A DNA stretch of 64,000 nt from NCBI GenBank assembly GCA_946188345.1, contig CAMHUI010000004.1, positions 1 through 64,000 of the forward strand, written 5' to 3'. This stretch comes from an uncultured Prevotellaceae bacterium. GTDB taxonomy: Bacteria > Bacteroidota > Bacteroidia > Bacteroidales > Bacteroidaceae. Within the stretch, counting starts at the first letter, position 1. Each line of letters opens with the position of its first letter. The notes below the pieces were generated by a model that was not told the DNA's origin, did not search any database, and was given only the letters and a program-made list of their open reading frames with translations. Below are positions 130 through 44,461 of this stretch, in pieces. The translations under genes were made by a program, and so were the position numbers.

Positions 130-1419
130 TTAGTCGGCTTCTGGCTGTTTCTTTCCGAAGTTCGGGTCGATATCGAGGAAGGCCGTTACCAAGAAGGTGA
201 TGGCGCAGGTAGCAATGACGATGAGGAAGAACGTCTGATAGCCCACAGCCTGCTGCAGTGCTCCGGCGAACAGTCCGGGAATCATCATCGACAATGCCAT
301 GAAAGCCGTGCACAAGGCATAGTGAGAAGTTTTATACTCACCCTGACAGAAGTAAATGAGATAGAGCATGTAGGCAGTGAATCCAAATCCGTAGCCGAAC
401 TGCTCAATAAAGACACAGACATTTACCACGAGAAGACTCTCGGGCTGAGCATAGCTGAGATAGACATAGACGACATCTGGCAGAGTGATGGCGCAGACCA
501 TTGGCCACAGCCACCGACGCAAGCCATGGCGCCCTGCAGCCATACCGCCAAGAATACCTCCGAGCGTAAGACCAATCACACCGACAGTGCCCTGCACCAA
601 TCCGAGTTCCTGTGGGGCGATGCCCAAGCCACCGCTACCGCGCCCGTCGAGGAGGAAGAGTGTCGAGACCTTCACCAGCAATCCTTCCGGCATCCGGTAC
701 AGGAGCATGAAGAGAATGGCCAAGACGACCGTCTTGACGGGAGCCTTGGTGAAGAACGTCCGGATGGTATCCACGACGCCATTCAGGATGTCGCGTGCGC
801 TGCCCTGCTCTTTGGCCTGGTCCTCAGCGGGCCTGGGAAGGATGAACCCGTGCCATAGCCAAAGGGCAATCAAGATGCCGGCTGTTCCATAGAAGACGAG
901 GGCCCACGAAAAGGCAATGCTGTTGCGGGCGAGCACCTGCAGGTTGCCTGCAATCATAATGAGTACCCCCTGTCCGAAGAGGGTTGCTATGCGATAGAAT
1001 GTCGACCTGATGCCAACGAAGAAAGCCTGCTGATGCTGGTCAAGTCCGAGCATGTAGAAGCCATCGGCTGCAATGTCGTGGGTGGCGCTGGAGAAAGCCA
1101 TCAGCCAGAAGAAGCAGAGCGAACCCTTCAGCCATGCCGACGTAGGTATGGTGAAGGCCACTCCTCCGAGGGCTGCTCCGATGAGCAGCTGCATCGAGAT
1201 AATCCACCAACGCTTCGTCTTAATAAGATCAACGAATGGACTCCACAAGGGTTTGATGACCCACGGCAGGTAGAGCCACGAGGTATAGAAGGTGATGTCG
1301 GCATTGTTGAGTCCCATCTGCTTGTAGAGCACAAGCGAGACCGTCATCACGACTACATACGGCAGTCCCTCAGCAAAATAGAGTGAGGGCACCCATGCCC
1401 ACGGATTTCTGTTTTTCAT
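130..1419 (-). CDS. AmpG-like MFS permease (probable muropeptide importer)
   Basis: A 429-residue polytopic membrane protein of the major facilitator superfamily. The N-terminus (YFAEGLPYVVV, then LYLPWVIKPLWSPFVDL) matches the AmpG/acetyl-CoA transporter-like branch, whose members import anhydro-muropeptides for cell-wall recycling. About twelve hydrophobic segments are visible, with a charged loop near residues 195-215. It lies 20 nt downstream of the SpoIID fusion gene on the same strand, so the two are probably co-transcribed. The partner's SpoIID domain acts on peptidoglycan in other bacteria, which supports a cell-wall recycling role. The substrate itself is inferred, not shown. Confidence 0.8.
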   Translation of the reverse strand: MKNRNPWAWVPSLYFAEGLPYVVVMTVSLVLYKQMGLNNADITFYTSWLYLPWVIKPLWSPFVDLIKTKRWWIISMQLLIGAALGGVAFTIPTSAWLKGSLCFFWLMAFSSATHDIAADGFYMLGLDQHQQAFFVGIRSTFYRIATLFGQGVLIMIAGNLQVLARNSIAFSWALVFYGTAGILIALWLWHGFILPRPAEDQAKEQGSARDILNGVVDTIRTFFTKAPVKTVVLAILFMLLYRMPEGLLVKVSTLFLLDGRGSGGLGIAPQELGLVQGTVGVIGLTLGGILGGMAAGRHGLRRWLWPMVCAITLPDVVYVYLSYAQPESLLVVNVCVFIEQFGYGFGFTAYMLYLIYFCQGEYKTSHYALCTAFMALSMMIPGLFAGALQQAVGYQTFFLIVIATCAITFLVTAFLDIDPNFGKKQPEAD

Positions 1420-1439
1420 ACTTTTATCTTAATATGGTA

Positions 1440-22090: not shown

Positions 22091-23219
22091 AAACTTGTCG
22101 TAATATTGCTTGTTTCAATGCGTCGCACTCCTGAAACATCTTGTCGAAGTTCGCTTGGAGGCGGTCAACTTTGGATTTCAGAGAGTCGAGAGTGGCAACG
22201 ATGGATTGCTGCTCGGAGAGAGGGGGCACAGGAATGCTAATCGCTTTTAATGCTGGGGCGTTTGTATGAACAACCTTCAGTTTCGTTTTACCCAATCCCT
22301 TTTGTCTTATGGCTTCTGGAGTAGTCAGAGCATAAGCAAGAAACTTCGGATTTTGATTATGTTTCATGCAAATAATATCGCCACCACAGAGGCATTTTTC
22401 ATTACCCAAATAAGCTATCGTCTTACCTATATCCTCTACGCTTTCACCTGTTATTGCAAATAATAAATCACCATGTTCGAAATACTTTGGAGAAGATATG
22501 TATTCTTCTTTTGTGTGCGAAACACAAGTATCAAATCCAACATTATAAGTCGTGTATATTTCTCCATATCTAACACAGGGCGTTCCTTCTTTTGTTACTT
22601 GGTCACGTCTTATTCCACAACCTCTGTACATATCAGTTGCTAAATCACCAAGCGTCTTTTCTTCCCACCCTTCTTTTGGTTCCATCATTTCTTTGAGTGA
22701 TGCTTGGAAGAGGGCTTTGGCTTCATTGAGTGCTTTTTCTGCATTAGCCTTCATTGCATCTATCTTTGCAAAAGCAGAGTCCAGATAATCTACGATGGAT
22801 AGCTGCTCGGAGAGAGGTGGGATGGGAACGGAAATGGAACACATTTTCTCTTGATTTAATTTAGGAACAGTTACACCGGTTATATAACTTTGCAGATTTG
22901 AATAGTTCAGGAAATAAATTAGCCAATAATCACTTATTACCTCTCTCCTAGGTCTTAAGGCATGAGCGTGATTATTCACCCAACTTTTACCTTCAATGCG
23001 GTATGCAGAACATTCTCCTGCTCCCCATTTTGCGCCATCTTCCCCTAATAAAACAAGAGGCTCATCGAATATATAATCCTTAACATAATCTAGCAACCCA
23101 GTTGCACCATAATACGGAATTGCACCGGATTCCCTTTTAGATTTTGTAATCGGCTTCCTTCGTGAATCAAGAATGTCGCAACATTCCTTTATTGTCAATA
23201 ATTCCCACCCTTCTTTCAT
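22083..23219 (-). CDS. hsdS: type I restriction enzyme, specificity (S) subunit
   Basis: 378 residues with two target-recognition domains, each followed by a conserved helical spacer: IPPLSEQLSIVDYLDSAFAKIDAMK near 165 and VPPLSEQQSIVATLDSLKSKVDRLQ near 345. HsdS chooses the bipartite DNA target for methylation and cleavage. Its ATG overlaps the hsdM stop (ATGA). The recognition domains are AT-richer than hsdM, as is usual for exchanged TRDs. No inverted repeats for phase-variable shuffling were seen. Confidence 0.93.
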   Translation of the reverse strand: MKEGWELLTIKECCDILDSRRKPITKSKRESGAIPYYGATGLLDYVKDYIFDEPLVLLGEDGAKWGAGECSAYRIEGKSWVNNHAHALRPRREVISDYWLIYFLNYSNLQSYITGVTVPKLNQEKMCSISVPIPPLSEQLSIVDYLDSAFAKIDAMKANAEKALNEAKALFQASLKEMMEPKEGWEEKTLGDLATDMYRGCGIRRDQVTKEGTPCVRYGEIYTTYNVGFDTCVSHTKEEYISSPKYFEHGDLLFAITGESVEDIGKTIAYLGNEKCLCGGDIICMKHNQNPKFLAYALTTPEAIRQKGLGKTKLKVVHTNAPALKAISIPVPPLSEQQSIVATLDSLKSKVDRLQANFDKMFQECDALKQAILRQVFE

Positions 23220-24673
23220 TTCACCATCTCCATGATTTCGTTGATAAGCGTCTGATTCTCGCTATTGAGGGCAAGGATAGTTTCAGCGATCTCGCTGGGG
23301 GTGCGCTCGTCCACTTCCTCTACTTTGTTAGGGTTCTTAACGCTCAGGTCGCAACTGTCATCGAGGGTGCTGACATCGAGTGTCCATGAATGTTCGCTCT
23401 CTACCTTTGTTTTCTGCAAAGTAAGGAACTCCTGCATATCAGCCTCCGTCAATGGCTGCGTCTTGGTGAAGTGCTTATCTACCTGATAGTACCAAATCTT
23501 CTGCGTCGGCTCGCCCTTGGTGAAGAACAAAACAACCGTCTTCACGCCAGCACCCGTGAACACGCCACTGGGCAGGTCGAGAATGGTATGAAGATTACAA
23601 TTCTCCAAAAGCATTTTTCTTATCGCGCTGGCATCACCATTGCTCAGGAAGGTGTTCTTGATGACTATGCCAGCACGACCGCCAGCCTTCAGCATCTTGA
23701 TGAAGTGTTGCATGAACATATAGGCTGTCTCGGAGGTGCGAATTTCAAAGTTCTGCAACACCTCACCACGCTCATTGCCGCCAAAGGGTGGATTGGCAAG
23801 GATGACGTTTTTGCGGTCGCTCTCCTGTATCTGACTGAGATTCATGGCAAGGGTGTTGCCATGCGTGATGTTGGGGGCAGAAACGCCGTGGAAGATCATG
23901 TTCATCGTGGCGATGATATAGGGCAGTCCTTTCTTCTCCTTGCCAAAGAAGGTGTTGTGCTGCAACGTCTCGTGGTCTTTCACGCTCTTGATCTTATCCT
24001 TCATGTAGAGGAACGCCTCGCAGAGGAAACCAGCCGAACCACAGGCAGGGTCATAGACCGTCTCGCCTATCTTTGGGTCAACCACCTTGATGATGCTGCG
24101 AATCAGAGGGCGCGGAGTGTAATACTCACCACCATTGCGCCCTGCATTGCCCATACGCTGGATATTGCTCTCATAAAGAACGGTCATTTCGTGCTTGTCC
24201 TCGGCACTTTGGAAGTGGAGTTCATCAATCATGTTGATAATCTCACGCATGTTGAAGCCTGAGCGAATCTTGTTGTGCAGTTCTCCAAAGATTTCACCTA
24301 TCTTATACTCCAGCGAATCGGTAGTGGTAGCCGTATTCTGGAAGTCTTTGAGGTAGGGAAAAAGCTTCTGGTCAACAAATTCCACCAGGTCGTCGCCACT
24401 CATGGCATTGACAGTATCGAGCACCATTCGGCCCGTCTGCGGGTCGCGCTTCTTGGGTGTTGCCCATTGGCTCCAGCGATAGAAGCCAGAAACCAGTCGC
24501 TTGTAGGACTTGCCATCAAGTTCGGCTTCCTCCTCACGTTCCGTTTCCAGATCGTCGAGGTACTTCAGGAACAGCATCCACGATTTCTGCTCCAAATAAT
24601 CAAGTTCACTACCACACCCCTGCTCCTTCCACAGGATTTGGTCAATAGCCTTGAATGTGTTTTCGTATTTCAT
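23216..24673 (-). CDS. hsdM: type I restriction-modification N6-adenine methylase, M subunit
   Basis: 485 residues with an N-terminal HsdM helical domain and a class-gamma N6-adenine methyltransferase core: SAM motif I VYDPACGSAGFL (about 207-218) and catalytic motif IV NPPFGG. With HsdS it methylates the target. The gene opens the operon and is preceded by a ~350-nt untranslated leader that holds the structured RNA, unusually long for an RM operon. Confidence 0.95.
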   Translation of the reverse strand: MKYENTFKAIDQILWKEQGCGSELDYLEQKSWMLFLKYLDDLETEREEEAELDGKSYKRLVSGFYRWSQWATPKKRDPQTGRMVLDTVNAMSGDDLVEFVDQKLFPYLKDFQNTATTTDSLEYKIGEIFGELHNKIRSGFNMREIINMIDELHFQSAEDKHEMTVLYESNIQRMGNAGRNGGEYYTPRPLIRSIIKVVDPKIGETVYDPACGSAGFLCEAFLYMKDKIKSVKDHETLQHNTFFGKEKKGLPYIIATMNMIFHGVSAPNITHGNTLAMNLSQIQESDRKNVILANPPFGGNERGEVLQNFEIRTSETAYMFMQHFIKMLKAGGRAGIVIKNTFLSNGDASAIRKMLLENCNLHTILDLPSGVFTGAGVKTVVLFFTKGEPTQKIWYYQVDKHFTKTQPLTEADMQEFLTLQKTKVESEHSWTLDVSTLDDSCDLSVKNPNKVEEVDERTPSEIAETILALNSENQTLINEIMEMVK

Positions 24674-24749
24674 TTATCTCTTGTTTTAGTCAGCATACAG
24701 ACTATATCTTCAGGCTTGCTTACAGGTAAAGACCAAGAGACCTCAGGAC

Positions 24750-24779
24750 ACAAAAGAAGCGCGAGTCATGGCTCTTCTC
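24750..24779 (-). terminator. terminator-like hairpin at the end of leader RNA A
   Basis: On the minus strand, GAAGAGC and GCGCTTC pair (one mismatch) and are followed by TTTTGT. The hairpin is imperfect, about 75 bp before the hsdM ATG, and corresponds in position to the stronger terminator of leader B. It could act as an attenuator. Confidence 0.4.
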
Positions 24780-25025
24780 TTGAATCTTGAGGTCCTCGGA
24801 ATGTACCTGTAACACTAGATATAAGTCATGCCCGCGCTATACGCACGGGCATCGGCTGACTTACTCAAAGTGTTACATCATTGAAATTTCCGAGGTTTCA
24901 AGATTCTCTGAATAAATAGCTGATGCTATTGTTTTAACCAACGAAAATCATACCGCCACCCTGCGCTCAGGGATTCCACGCCTGATGTGTGAGGTCGGCG
25001 CCGTCAACGACGATTCAGCGATACT
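24750..25025 (-). ncRNA. structured leader RNA, copy A (upstream of hsdM)
   Basis: Minus-strand RNA from a likely TSS near 25025 to a terminator-like hairpin at 24779-24750. In order, it has a 5' AACAAGTATCGC-GAA end, a small hairpin (CGTCG/CGGCG), a CCCTG-AGCG-CAGGG hairpin followed by GGCGGTATGATTTT (24972-24941), an AATAGC/GCTATT hairpin and a long hairpin. The long hairpin is closed by TTCCGAGG...CAAGATT arms (24905-24888 with 24801-24783) and capped by the ATGCCCGTGC/GCGCGGGCAT stem. Copy B shares the 5' end, the core and the capped stem, with compensatory changes. It may be a cis-regulator or a free RNA. I know no named family that fits. Confidence 0.7.
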
Positions 25026-25031
25026 TGTTTG

Positions 25032-25039
25032 CAAAAGTA
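25032..25039 (-). promoter_or_regulatory. -7 box of leader RNA A
   Basis: TTCGTACTTTTGCAAACAAG on the minus strand fits the TAnnTTTG consensus (TACTTTTG) and is almost identical to the promoter of leader B. A convincing -33 element was not found. Confidence 0.55.
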
Positions 25040-25078: not shown

Positions 25079-25234
25079 GTTGAATTTCATTCTCCGTTTT
25101 CTCGCCATGGCAAAGTTCAAACAAGTTTGGCTCTGCTCATCTGGCTTAACGAAAAGGTTGAATTTCATTCTCCGTTTTCTCGCCATGGCAAAGCTCAAAC
25201 AAGTTTGGCTCTGCTCATCTGGCTTAACGAAAAC
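25079..25234. repeat. two near-identical 78-bp tandem copies
   Basis: Copies start at 25079 and 25157 (GTTGAATTTCATTCTCCGTT) and differ at two bases. They lie between the leader A promoter and the tmRNA promoter. The unit is open in several frames, giving repeated track ORFs on both strands, but none looks like a real gene. Confidence 0.85.
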
Positions 25235-25355: not shown

Positions 25356-25753
25356 GGGGTTGACTGGATTTGACAGCGGGTTGAGATGGTACGTAAGCAC
25401 GCGGAGCCTCGGAGGCTATCTCCTTAAACGAAGCTTTCAGAAAATTAATTGGCAACAATGAGTATGCTCTCGCTGCCTAATCGAAGTATAGTAGATTACT
25501 GGCTTTATTCCTTCACCAGGTGAGGGAACGAGACGTCGCTCCAAGGATGTTTTTCCGAATCTGAGGGTTCAGCGGCGCAGACAAATCGGGAATAGTCCGG
25601 CAGGTGCCTCGACGGCCGGGCGAAACTTTAGAGGATAAGGCTGCGGTTGGTGGTCCAGGTCTTGCCACAGCACGAAAACCAAAGGCTGGAATAAGCGTGT
25701 AGAAAGCGTATGGTTTCCCTGTTTGGACGCGGGTTCGACTCCCGCCAGCTCCA
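25356..25753 (+). tRNA. ssrA: transfer-messenger RNA (tmRNA)
   Basis: The 5' GGGGTTG pairs with the 3' CAGCTCC to form a seven-base-pair acceptor stem. The T-arm GCGGGTTCGACTCCCGC is intact, and CCA is only partly encoded. The mRNA-like part encodes the tag GNNEYALAA ending TAA (25451-25480), close to the GENNYALAA-type tag of Bacteroidales. tmRNA rescues stalled ribosomes and tags nascent proteins for ClpXP. It is placed under tRNA because no tmRNA type is available. Confidence 0.93.
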
Positions 25754-25761
25754 CAAAAAGA

Positions 25762-41281: not shown

Positions 41282-41316
41282 GCCAAACTAAAACACAAAA
41301 CATCATCTATTGAAAA

Positions 41317-41404
41317 GTAATAGATGATTTATTACTGAGTAATAGATGATTTATTACTGAGTAATAGATGATTTATTACCGAGTAATAGATGATTTATTA
41401 CTTT
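41317..41404. repeat. 22-bp palindromic tandem array (copy C)
   Basis: Four units AGTAATAGATGATTTATTAC start at 41317, 41339, 41361 and 41383, exactly 22 bp apart. Each unit is an inverted repeat AGTAAT-N9-ATTACT. There are no spacers. It lies just after a terminator and shares period and palindromy, but not sequence, with the arrays at 5.5 and 57.4 kb. Confidence 0.85.
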
Positions 41405-41604
41405 GCAATAAATAATCTTTTGCATCTTGATTACCACCTTCTCACCCCATCTCCGTGAAGAAATCATCACATCATCAGCAACCGACAACAACCTTATCTG
41501 CATAAAGACGCCGCATGATTGCCATAGAGCCCCTACTGCCATAGACAATCATCTTTTTTTCCTAAAAATCCCATCTATTTTTTCTCGATTCACATTTTTC
41601 TTCG

Positions 41605-41612
41605 TACCTTTG
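41605..41612 (+). promoter_or_regulatory. -7 box of leader RNA B
   Basis: TTCGTACCTTTGCAACAAG fits the consensus (TACCTTTG) and is nearly identical to the promoter of leader A. Confidence 0.6.
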
Positions 41613-41619
41613 CAACAAG

Positions 41620-41873
41620 TATCGCCGAAATGCCTAAAAGGCATCAGCCACGGCAGAGTCCTTGAACGCAGGGGGGCGGTATGATTTTAGTGGAACTATA
41701 ACAAGCGTTTGCTGTTATTCGGAATTGTCCTAAGAATCTCGCAAATTCAAAGAAACAAAAACCGATGAATAAGTTGCAAGCGTCTGTGCGTTAAGCATGG
41801 GCGTGACTTATCTGGTTTTTGTAGGCATGCGAGAGCCTTTAGGACATGGATGAGAATCGTCCATGTCTTTTTT
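41620..41873 (+). ncRNA. structured leader RNA, copy B (upstream of the EcoRI-family methylase)
   Basis: About 254 nt from the inferred TSS to a terminator. It has the 5' AACAAGTATCGC-GAA end, an ATGCC/GGCAT hairpin, CCTTG-AACG-CAGGG followed by GGCGGTATGATTTT (41660-41691), an ATAACA/TGTTAT hairpin and a long hairpin. The long hairpin's arms are TGTCCTAA (41726) and TTTAGGACA, TCTCGCA/TGCGAGA, and ACAAAAACC/GGTTTTTGT, and it is capped by CGTCTGTGC/GCATGGGCG. Compared with copy A the sequence differs but pairing is kept. It could attenuate the downstream methylase operon or be released as a free RNA. Confidence 0.7.
41843..41873 (+). terminator. intrinsic terminator at the end of leader RNA B
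   Basis: A perfect 8-bp GACATGGA/TCCATGTC stem with six following Ts lies about 60 bp before the methylase start. Its first four bases (GACA) also pair with the 5' arm of the long leader hairpin, so the two structures compete. Confidence 0.8.
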
Positions 41874-41931
41874 GTGCTCTATGCGAAGCCTACTCCTCCG
41901 AAGATAAGCAATACGCACTAATGTGTAACGT

Positions 41932-43008
41932 ATGGCTAACAAAAACCTTAATGCTGCTAAAACGGCAAAGAAAGATGAGTTTTATACTCAACTGACAGAC
42001 ATCGAACGGGAATTGCAACACTATTGGAAGCACTTCCGCGACAAGGTAGTATTGTGCAACTGCGACGATCCCTATGAGAGTAATTTCTTCAAGTACTTTG
42101 CACTTCGGTTCAATCAGTTAGGACTGAAGAAACTGATTTGCACATGCTACAACGGTTCGCCCGTCCAAGGCAACGAACTCATGATTGACTTCGGCGACTT
42201 TTCCGAAGAACCCAAAAAGATAGCCTATAAGGTAGAGATAACGGAAGTAAAGGACCTGAATGGCGATGGAGCAGTAGACTTGTCTGACGTTCAATACCTA
42301 CTCCAAAACGACAAAAACGTTTGTTCTATCCTCAAGACTGGTGACTTCCGCGACCCAGAGTGCATCGAACTCCTGAAACAGGCCGACATCGTTGTAACTA
42401 ACCCACCGTTCTCCTTGTTCCGAGAATACATCGGACAACTAATGGAATACGATAAGAAGTTTTTAATAGTAGGAAACCAAGGAGCTATAATATATAAAGA
42501 AATATTCCCAAGCGTAATTAACAATAAAATTTGGCTTGGGTATGGCTTTAAAGGAGGTGCCGCCCATTTCGTATCTCCTTACGAAGATGTAGCGACAGCC
42601 ACAGACCACAAAGCTGGTATGATAAGAGTTTCAGGAGTGCATTGGTTCACAAACATGGAAATACCAAAAAGGAATGAAGAAATTGACTTAGTTTGTAGAT
42701 ATTCACCAGAAGAATATCCGAAATACGATAATTATAATGCCATTAATGTAGATAGAACACAAGATATTCCTTGCGATTATGATGGAATTATGGGAGTTCC
42801 TATAACATTCCTTGACAAATATAATCCCAATCAATTCGAAATAGTATGGCAAGCAAGTGGAAATACAAAAGCTTCCGCACCAAGTTCTGTCCTTAAAGAA
42901 ATTGGTTATAATGCACATCCTGATGACCGTGGTGGGTGTGGAGTCGTGAGAGGCAAAAGGCAATACAGCAGAATATTAATTCGCAATAAACATCCCAAAA
43001 AGACTTGA
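41932..43008 (+). CDS. EcoRI-family adenine-specific DNA methyltransferase
   Basis: 358 residues of the M.EcoRI family (N-terminal NAAKTAKKDEFYTQLTDIERE, catalytic NPPF at 157-160). It should methylate N6-adenine in a specific DNA site. Residues 108-124 read DLNGDGAVDLSDVQYLL, an EF-hand/dockerin-like calcium-loop pattern, in a DNA enzyme. The gene is coupled to the DUF262-HNH gene, so it is probably the modification half of a restriction-like pair. The second half is AT-richer than the first, which hints at transfer. Confidence 0.88.
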   Translation: MANKNLNAAKTAKKDEFYTQLTDIERELQHYWKHFRDKVVLCNCDDPYESNFFKYFALRFNQLGLKKLICTCYNGSPVQGNELMIDFGDFSEEPKKIAYKVEITEVKDLNGDGAVDLSDVQYLLQNDKNVCSILKTGDFRDPECIELLKQADIVVTNPPFSLFREYIGQLMEYDKKFLIVGNQGAIIYKEIFPSVINNKIWLGYGFKGGAAHFVSPYEDVATATDHKAGMIRVSGVHWFTNMEIPKRNEEIDLVCRYSPEEYPKYDNYNAINVDRTQDIPCDYDGIMGVPITFLDKYNPNQFEIVWQASGNTKASAPSSVLKEIGYNAHPDDRGGCGVVRGKRQYSRILIRNKHPKKT

Positions 43009-43022
43009 CTGCAGGAAAAAGA

Positions 43023-44144
43023 ATGACAATCAAGCAAATAGAAGTGACCGTTGGTGACATCACCAAGGGTTATGTGAATAACGATGAACAAGGTGTTCGT
43101 GGCTACGATGGTTTATTGGACATCCGCCCACCCTACCAGCGAGAGTTTATCTACAACGAAAAGGAACAGCAGGCAGTCATCAATACCGTACTGCAAGGCT
43201 ATCCGCTGAACGTGATGTACTGGGTAAAGCGAAGTGAGGATGCCGAGTGCCCCTACGAAGTGATGGACGGGCAGCAGCGTACGCTCTCGCTCTGCGAATA
43301 TGTAGACGGAAAATTCGCCTACGAGTTTAAGAACTTTTTCAATCAGCCCGAAGATATTCAGAAGCGCATCCTCAACTATCCGCTTACCATCTACGTCTGT
43401 GAGGGTGAAGCATCAGAAAAACTGGAGTGGTTTAAGACTATCAACATTGCAGGCAAGCCGCTGAACGACCAAGAGATAAATAATGCCATCTATGCCGGTC
43501 CCTTCGTAAGCGATGCCAAGCGCCACTTCTCAAAGAGCAACAGCGGGGCAGCCCGTTTGGGCAAAGACCTGGTCAACGGAACTCCCATCCGACAGGACTT
43601 TCTGAAGGTGGCATTACAGTGGATAGCCGACCATGAGACTCGGTGCGGCCATCGGCAGACCATAGTAGGCTATATGGCCGACCACCAGCATGACCCTAAT
43701 GCCAACAACCTTTGGTCTTACTTCCAAACGGTGCTCAACTGGGCCATCACCAACTTTGACATGAAGAAATTCAAGAAGATAATGAAGGGCTTGGACTGGG
43801 CTTGGCTGTACGACAAGTATGGTTCGGAGACTTTAAATACTGCAGCTCTCGGGAAACGCATTTCCGAACTGATGCGCGACAGCGAAATACAGCGTCAGGC
43901 AGGTATCATACCATACGTTCTGACTGGCGACGAGCACTACCTCGACTTACGGGCCTTTCCTGAAGACATTAAGTTAAAGGTATGGGAGCAGCAAGGTCAT
44001 AAGTGCGCTATCTGCGGCAAGGTGTTTGATTATGAGTTTATGGAGGGCGACCACATCACTCCTTGGCGTGAAGGTGGCCGAACTGTTATAGAGAATTGCC
44101 AGATGCTGTGCCGCGAATGTAACAGGAGAAAGGGAGCCAAATAA
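43023..44144 (+). CDS. DUF262/ParB-like and HNH endonuclease protein
   Basis: 373 residues from the ATG at 43023, which has AGGAAAAAG in front; the track's TTG at 43005 is less likely. The N-terminal DUF262 (GmrSD-N-like) region has RPPYQREFIYNEKEQQAVI and a DGQQRTLSL motif. The C-terminal ~50 residues form an HNH nuclease (CAICGKV, GDHITPW, N-C-R-CNRRKG). DUF262 proteins can use nucleotides to trigger nicking. Next to the EcoRI-family methylase this looks like the nuclease half of a restriction or anti-phage pair. The function is not demonstrated. Confidence 0.82.
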   Translation: MTIKQIEVTVGDITKGYVNNDEQGVRGYDGLLDIRPPYQREFIYNEKEQQAVINTVLQGYPLNVMYWVKRSEDAECPYEVMDGQQRTLSLCEYVDGKFAYEFKNFFNQPEDIQKRILNYPLTIYVCEGEASEKLEWFKTINIAGKPLNDQEINNAIYAGPFVSDAKRHFSKSNSGAARLGKDLVNGTPIRQDFLKVALQWIADHETRCGHRQTIVGYMADHQHDPNANNLWSYFQTVLNWAITNFDMKKFKKIMKGLDWAWLYDKYGSETLNTAALGKRISELMRDSEIQRQAGIIPYVLTGDEHYLDLRAFPEDIKLKVWEQQGHKCAICGKVFDYEFMEGDHITPWREGGRTVIENCQMLCRECNRRKGAK

Positions 44145-44159
44145 AAACTCCTAATATCA

Positions 44160-44461
44160 ATTGCTGTCTGGTAAAAAGCGGCCCGCAGGGCCAGTGAGAA
44201 CTTAGCCCCGGGCAACGCCCAGGGTTGAGGGTGCAGAGTAACTGGCGCCCCGAAGGTGGCAAAAGAATTGCATCCTGTTCCGTTCTTTTGCCACCTTCGG
44301 GGCGTTTTATCCGCCAATTCGCTGCCCAGGGCGTTGCCCGGGGCTAAGTTCTCACTGGCCCTGCGGGCCGCAAATAAGCCACTTTGTTTTGGAAATATTG
44401 ACGAACACGGATAAACACTGGGGTAGTCAAAGAAGGTAAAACATTTTTACCAGACACCAAT
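44160..44461. mobile_element. MITE-like element with nested palindromes
   Basis: About 300 bp bounded by near-perfect 17-bp inverted repeats (TTGSTGTCTGGTAAAAA at 44161-44177 and its complement at 44444-44460, one mismatch). Inside, a 47-bp inverted pair (44178-44224 with 44325-44371, one mismatch) surrounds a 22-bp inverted pair (44246-44267 with 44283-44304). No ORF is convincing. It could be mobilised by a transposase recognising the ends. No clear target-site duplication was seen. Confidence 0.7.

Follow-up and report, generated by a model that had tools for sequence, protein, structure and literature searches.

A structured leader RNA, read from the sequence at 41619-41916 and here called leader B, lies ahead of a DNA-methylase gene in the window, the whole 64,000-nucleotide stretch of DNA that was analysed. 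It almost certainly belongs to a new and apparently undescribed family of cis-leader RNAs in Bacteroidota. In the reading that we favour, and to which we give an even chance, leader B represents the restriction-modification type found in Prevotella, and this large family of 5' leaders acts in cis as a two-state switch, probably through conditional termination of transcription. The folds, which are conserved and overlap, point to an on/off switch, a bistable leader laid out like an attenuator. This layout is a trait of the family and is not specific to the methylase.

Architecture of leader B

Leader B, like the genes behind it, is encoded on the plus strand. A Bacteroidetes-type –7 promoter box (TACCTTTG, 41605-41612) abuts the RNA structure on its 5' side, and homologous leaders carry a TAnnTTTG-like box at the equivalent position. 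AT-rich tandem and inverted repeats (AATAGATGATTTATTACTGAGT-like, 41296-41422) are found upstream of this promoter. The predicted fold of leader B beats all 200 of 200 dinucleotide shuffles (z = –4.18).

The 5' part is a cloverleaf domain (41619-41682) in which helix P1 pairs GTATCGCC (41619-41626) with GGCGGTAT (41675-41682). It holds three hairpins, one at 41630-41644, one at 41660-41672 and a small one in the interval separating them. Across 34 sequences, 96.3% of the cells in the cloverleaf are paired, with 42 double-change cells as opposed to 8.5 after shuffling. The covariance model of this domain (R1) matches leader B at 41609-41688. It is followed by the region 41700-41723, which contains hairpin hpR (41700-41716) as well as strand R/R' (41705-41723). 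This strand has two possible partners, strands N (41762-41772) and S (41897-41916); 41709-41723 and 41897-41911 form an inverted repeat.

The core of the 3' domain is a long hairpin (41726-41846), whose helix Y joins strand a (41726-41742, TGTCCTAAGAATCTCGC) to strand b (41829-41846, GCGAGAGCCTTTAGGACA). Within it lie helix M (41755-41763/41814-41822) and an apical hairpin formed by hp5 (41781-41789) and hp3 (41795-41803). The corresponding model (R2) matches leader B at 41696-41849. Two further helices reach beyond the long hairpin. Helix X (41821-41893) pairs b1 (GTAGGC, 41821-41826) with c2 (GCCTAC, 41888-41893) and crosses Y, either as a pseudoknot or as an alternative to it. Helix Z (41831-41880) pairs b2 (GAGAGC, 41831-41836) with c1 (GCTCT, 41876-41880), takes a strand that is also used by Y and surrounds hairpin T. 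The latter (41843-41873) is terminator-like, with a GACATGG..CCATGTC stem-loop (41843-41867) followed by six T (41868-41873); its strand T3 (41858-41865) is complementary to hp3 as well. Strand S and a small start-codon hairpin (ATACG.. with ..CGTAT) make up the end of the leader (41897-41931), as read in the sequence and supported by the R:S test described below.

Hairpin T and the 3' arm of the long hairpin have four bases in common (GACA, 41843-41846), and the ATG of the methylase gene at 41932 lies 64 bp past the T stem. The first-pass annotation had thus correctly described a terminator about 60 bp before the methylase start that overlaps the long hairpin by four bases. A terminator scan recovers the T site with 13 pairs. 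The calculated energies of leader B with the long hairpin complete (–55.5 kcal/mol) and with the terminator complete (–56.0 kcal/mol) are 0.5 kcal/mol apart, making the two forms nearly isoenergetic. When the energies were compared automatically across classes in general, T came out ahead instead of in balance; the helix ends chosen in that comparison were unreliable, and we do not count it as support. Sharing of bases between T and the long hairpin was found in 11 of 11 EcoRI-methylase-type homologues and in 39 of the 40 leaders examined; the helix ends set by the script are generous, and the numbers of shared nucleotides are upper limits.

Some readings were discarded. A leader-peptide attenuator was rejected, as the possible ATGATTTT.. 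open reading frames (MILVEL in leader B, MIFVG in its second copy, leader A) are unconserved, with the ATG or the short length lost in five leaders (L006, L009, L010, L085 and L089). A group I intron or derived ribozyme resembles the leader by eye only, in the order of its crossing helices, and omega RNA and integron sites likewise show a visual resemblance only; the Rfam search gave no match to any of these, for the ribozymes at E values up to 10.

Competing pairings and a proposed two-state model

In a MAFFT alignment of 40 leaders, 97.6% of the cells in helix Y and the apical hairpin are paired, with 248 double-change cells versus 73 after shuffling. The values for 80 mostly phylum-wide sequences are 95.9% and 540 versus 147; the counts of this second alignment, which was fitted to the model, lean its way, and the MAFFT alignment agrees with them. 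Long-range helices were assessed by comparing the pairing energy of a sequence's own strands with that of strands swapped between sequences, within classes for the Prevotella set. The within-class z scores were –10.5 for Y (a:b2), –6.2 for Z (b2:c1), –5.2 for X and –3.6 for R:S. These and the following z scores are strong indications and not exact probabilities, because the windows were picked with the sequences in view and relatives do not count as independent observations. The negative-control pairings a:c1 and N:S gave no signal within class (0.1 for a:c1; controls 0.1 and –0.3). Phylum-wide, hp5:hp3 reached –11.0, R':N –10.3 and T3:hp3 –7.6, while the hp5:T3 control scored +1.3.

Two strands therefore each take part in two mutually exclusive, co-evolving helices: b2 pairs with the upstream strand a or with the downstream strand c1, and, in the phylum-wide set, hp3 pairs with hp5 or with T3. 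Directly after T, a U-tract (6 or more T among 7 positions) is found in 84% of the phylum-wide loci, compared with 29% and 12% further downstream. The proposal in the first-pass annotation that competing structures form an attenuator-like layout is borne out by these conserved alternative pairings of b2, the phylum-wide U-tract and the near-isoenergetic forms. Leader B has, between promoter and gene, a hairpin with a direct U-tract and a conserved, competing upstream pairing, as an attenuator with an intrinsic terminator would.

What we observe is a conserved structure with pairings that compete and co-evolve, together with a conserved U-tract; termination, the direction of control and the trigger are inferences. 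In the putative read-through state, b would pair with the upstream strand a in helix Y and hp5 with hp3, so that the base of the T hairpin would be drawn off the U-tract and RNA polymerase would continue. In the stop state, T would capture the shared GACA, its stem would directly abut the U-tract and transcription would end about 60 bp ahead of the gene. In relatives, T could capture more of b2, and T3 could take hp3. Since c1 is made only after the U-tract, helix Z cannot be the antiterminator, and Y and hp5:hp3 are better candidates.

The two-state reading is supported by the promoter box right before the RNA and by the near-constant distance from this box to the gene start, about 290-375 nt in the leaders examined. 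A second –7 box (TAnnTTTG) is absent from the 62 nt past the terminator in all 40 leaders (0/40), which speaks against a separate downstream promoter, the finding that the first-pass annotation had named as one that would count against attenuation. The evidence on the other side is that hp3:T3, whose arms stand about 60 nt apart, is not significant in the Prevotella set alone (z = –1.0) and that classes A, D and H have few U (1-4 of 8) past the outer end of their extended T hairpin. Only the EcoRI-methylase class combines a perfect stem with a strong U-tract that stays unpaired behind it. Elsewhere among the restriction-modification leaders, T is lengthened into a longer hairpin that largely contains the T-run, and termination there may thus be weaker or replaced by translation control.

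Control of translation instead of transcription would fit several of these observations. Pairing of R with S could free an A-rich ribosome-binding stretch, or S could pair near the start codon and hide it, with T being a mere structural tip of helix Z. The R:S pairing co-evolves within classes, the T-run of classes A, D and H lies largely within the extended T/Z hairpin, and the restriction-modification leaders possess both S and the start-codon hairpin. However, by eye, these two elements go unrecognised in most other loci, yet the U-tract is kept throughout the phylum, and we consider translation control as the main mechanism rather unlikely. Under the two-state reading, the same elements, R with S and the hairpin reaching the ATG, may form a second layer near the start codon that affects translation in the restriction-modification members.

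Distribution and downstream genes

The gene behind leader B encodes a DNA adenine methylase of the EcoRI_methylase family (PF13651; MTase_II match; 41932-43008) and is followed by a restriction endonuclease gene with GmrSD_N and HNH domains (REase_II match; 43005-44144). A short repeat past the endonuclease gene (44178-44377) recurs, partly inverted, on another contig of the genome (L004). A genome search revealed a second copy of the RNA in the same window, leader A (24745-25032, minus strand; fold z = –6.35), located before the gene for the type I methyltransferase HsdM (23216-24673, minus strand; MTase_I, 4e-152). Upstream of leader A, a stretch of about 75-80 bp (AGCCAGATGAGCAGAGCCAAACTTG..GAATGAAATTCAAC) occurs twice as a direct repeat (25100-25230), adjoined by a tmRNA gene (25356-25754).

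The combined pattern of promoter box and 5' domain was found at 32 loci of the genome collection, which their titles assign without exception to Prevotellaceae or related Bacteroidaceae. Of the 28 loci with enough downstream sequence, 26 lead to restriction-modification or PLD-SNF2 helicase genes, a count made manually, in part from similarity to class members that had been scanned; the remaining two (L022 and L043) have the 5' domain only. These lone cloverleafs (L043 1319-1399, L022 5018-5099) have their own promoter box and a possible 25-codon open reading frame (MIFVGKRYDKITKQTNKTIKTHPLY). Among Prevotellaceae, the downstream genes encode type I, II, IIG and III methylases or fused enzymes, as well as PLD-SNF2 helicases. 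At L028 and L083, the leader ends early, past helix Y, and runs straight into a cytosine-methylase-like gene.

Of the two domains, the 3' one has by far the wider distribution. Whereas the cloverleaf was found in 11 of the 121 genomes searched within the family, the covariance model of the core detects 81 of 247 Bacteroidales genomes from 63 genera, scoring as many as 12 copies per genome; in a sample taken from the whole of Bacteroidota, it detects 16 of 248 genomes. Xylanibacter brevis ATCC 19188 has a single copy (L026). At two loci, tandem core copies lie within about 350 bp (L141 251-599, L145 1295-1639). Outside Prevotellaceae, 62 downstream proteins, an uneven set to which single genomes contribute several copies, include nine with a TonB plug and six BspA-type repeat proteins; other members match the MTase_I, II, III, IIG, EcoRI_methylase and ZorA models. 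Lipoprotein genes are likewise found behind the core RNA. The gene behind the core RNA in L136 is MotA/ExbB-like and is most likely the one scanned member that matches ZorA of the Zorya defence system.

This list of genes bears on what the switch might respond to. The first-pass annotation had suggested that leader B may attenuate the methylase operon; the attenuator-like layout holds, but not a restriction to the methylase, as genes for helicases, ZorA, TonB receptors, BspA proteins and lipoproteins follow this RNA too. The same list counts against the sensor of DNA modification that the annotation had called imaginable. DNA methylation is an unlikely trigger because most sampled downstream genes outside Prevotella are unrelated to methylation.

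That one fold is common to very diverse downstream genes would also be expected of a protein-bound leader. A host factor, such as a NusG paralogue or another RNA-binding protein, could read the fold and promote readthrough of long or foreign operons, as in LoaP or put/EAR-type RNAs, rather than the leader being ligand-driven. One genome (G356) contains two leaders (L085 and L092) with the same unusual 5' domain, as expected if this domain tracks a host factor. However, such a factor is only hypothetical, and the mutually exclusive conserved pairings suggest more than a docking site, making this explanation distinctly improbable in our view.

With promoter, RNA and terminator, leader B can also be read as a complete unit, some 255 nt long. 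It could thus serve mainly as a free small RNA that terminates at the T hairpin, with the downstream gene expressed via readthrough. This is very unlikely, as the conserved strands c1, c2 and S sit past the terminator and find their partners upstream within the RNA, which moreover keeps a constant position before genes.

BLAST searches with leader B matched some loci in the 5' half only and others only from about 41694 on, indicating that the 5' and 3' modules recombine independently. It is nonetheless scarcely credible that the RNA is a mobile or recombining sequence module travelling with cassette-like genes and devoid of a regulatory role, since the extensive compensatory changes need selection on RNA or single-strand structure and three of four viral scans found no copy, the fourth giving a single match. 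That match, to a short generic apical-hairpin pattern, is on a viral contig (IMG/VR; L170 293-323). BLAST against plasmids and phages yielded short chance matches only.

In Rfam, only the tmRNA of the window scored above the gathering threshold, and nothing meaningful was found in leader B at E values up to 10. Our literature search, partial in coverage, yielded no description of the leader; large unnamed prediction sets from microbiome screens may include the family.

Implications and comparison with known systems

An RNA leader that is conserved in roughly one in three of the Bacteroidales genomes sampled, frequently in multiple copies and ahead of genes for defence and for surface proteins, would mean that gene control in a major phylum of the gut and rumen has a layer so far unrecognised. 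The expression control of restriction-modification systems, a long-standing question with regard to their safe entry into new hosts, would become directly testable at the RNA level. As a more speculative extension, which we regard as a long shot, one bistable RNA device could serve as a common on/off module of Bacteroidota for anti-phage systems (several restriction-modification types and ZorA) and surface proteins such as TonB receptors. If so, the cell would switch its defence and its exposed receptors via one RNA signal.

The proposed two-state leader is reminiscent of transcription attenuators of the trp type and of many riboswitch platforms, in which one strand takes part in two exclusive helices, one of them ending in a U-tract shortly before the gene. 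However, the present family has neither a conserved leader peptide nor a known aptamer, contains crossing helices and is found throughout the phylum before unrelated genes. The DUF805 RNA (Rfam RF03081) is likewise a cis-regulatory RNA. It is described by a separate 68-nt model, which matches neither leader B nor the other tested loci, apart from a neighbour at L133. There, a DUF805 RNA (1364-1432, minus strand) comes right after the U-tract of a core RNA, placing two leader RNAs in tandem.

Leaders for processive antitermination of the LoaP, UpxY and RfaH type also carry polymerase into operons that are long or variable. The NusG paralogue UpxY comes from Bacteroides, and leaders of this type are tied to capsule or antibiotic operons, whereas our analysis linked no such factor to the present RNA. 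The time or dose of expression of restriction-modification genes is known to be controlled by controller proteins (C proteins). In contrast to these, the candidate controller described here is an RNA leader, common to many types of system and to non-defence genes.
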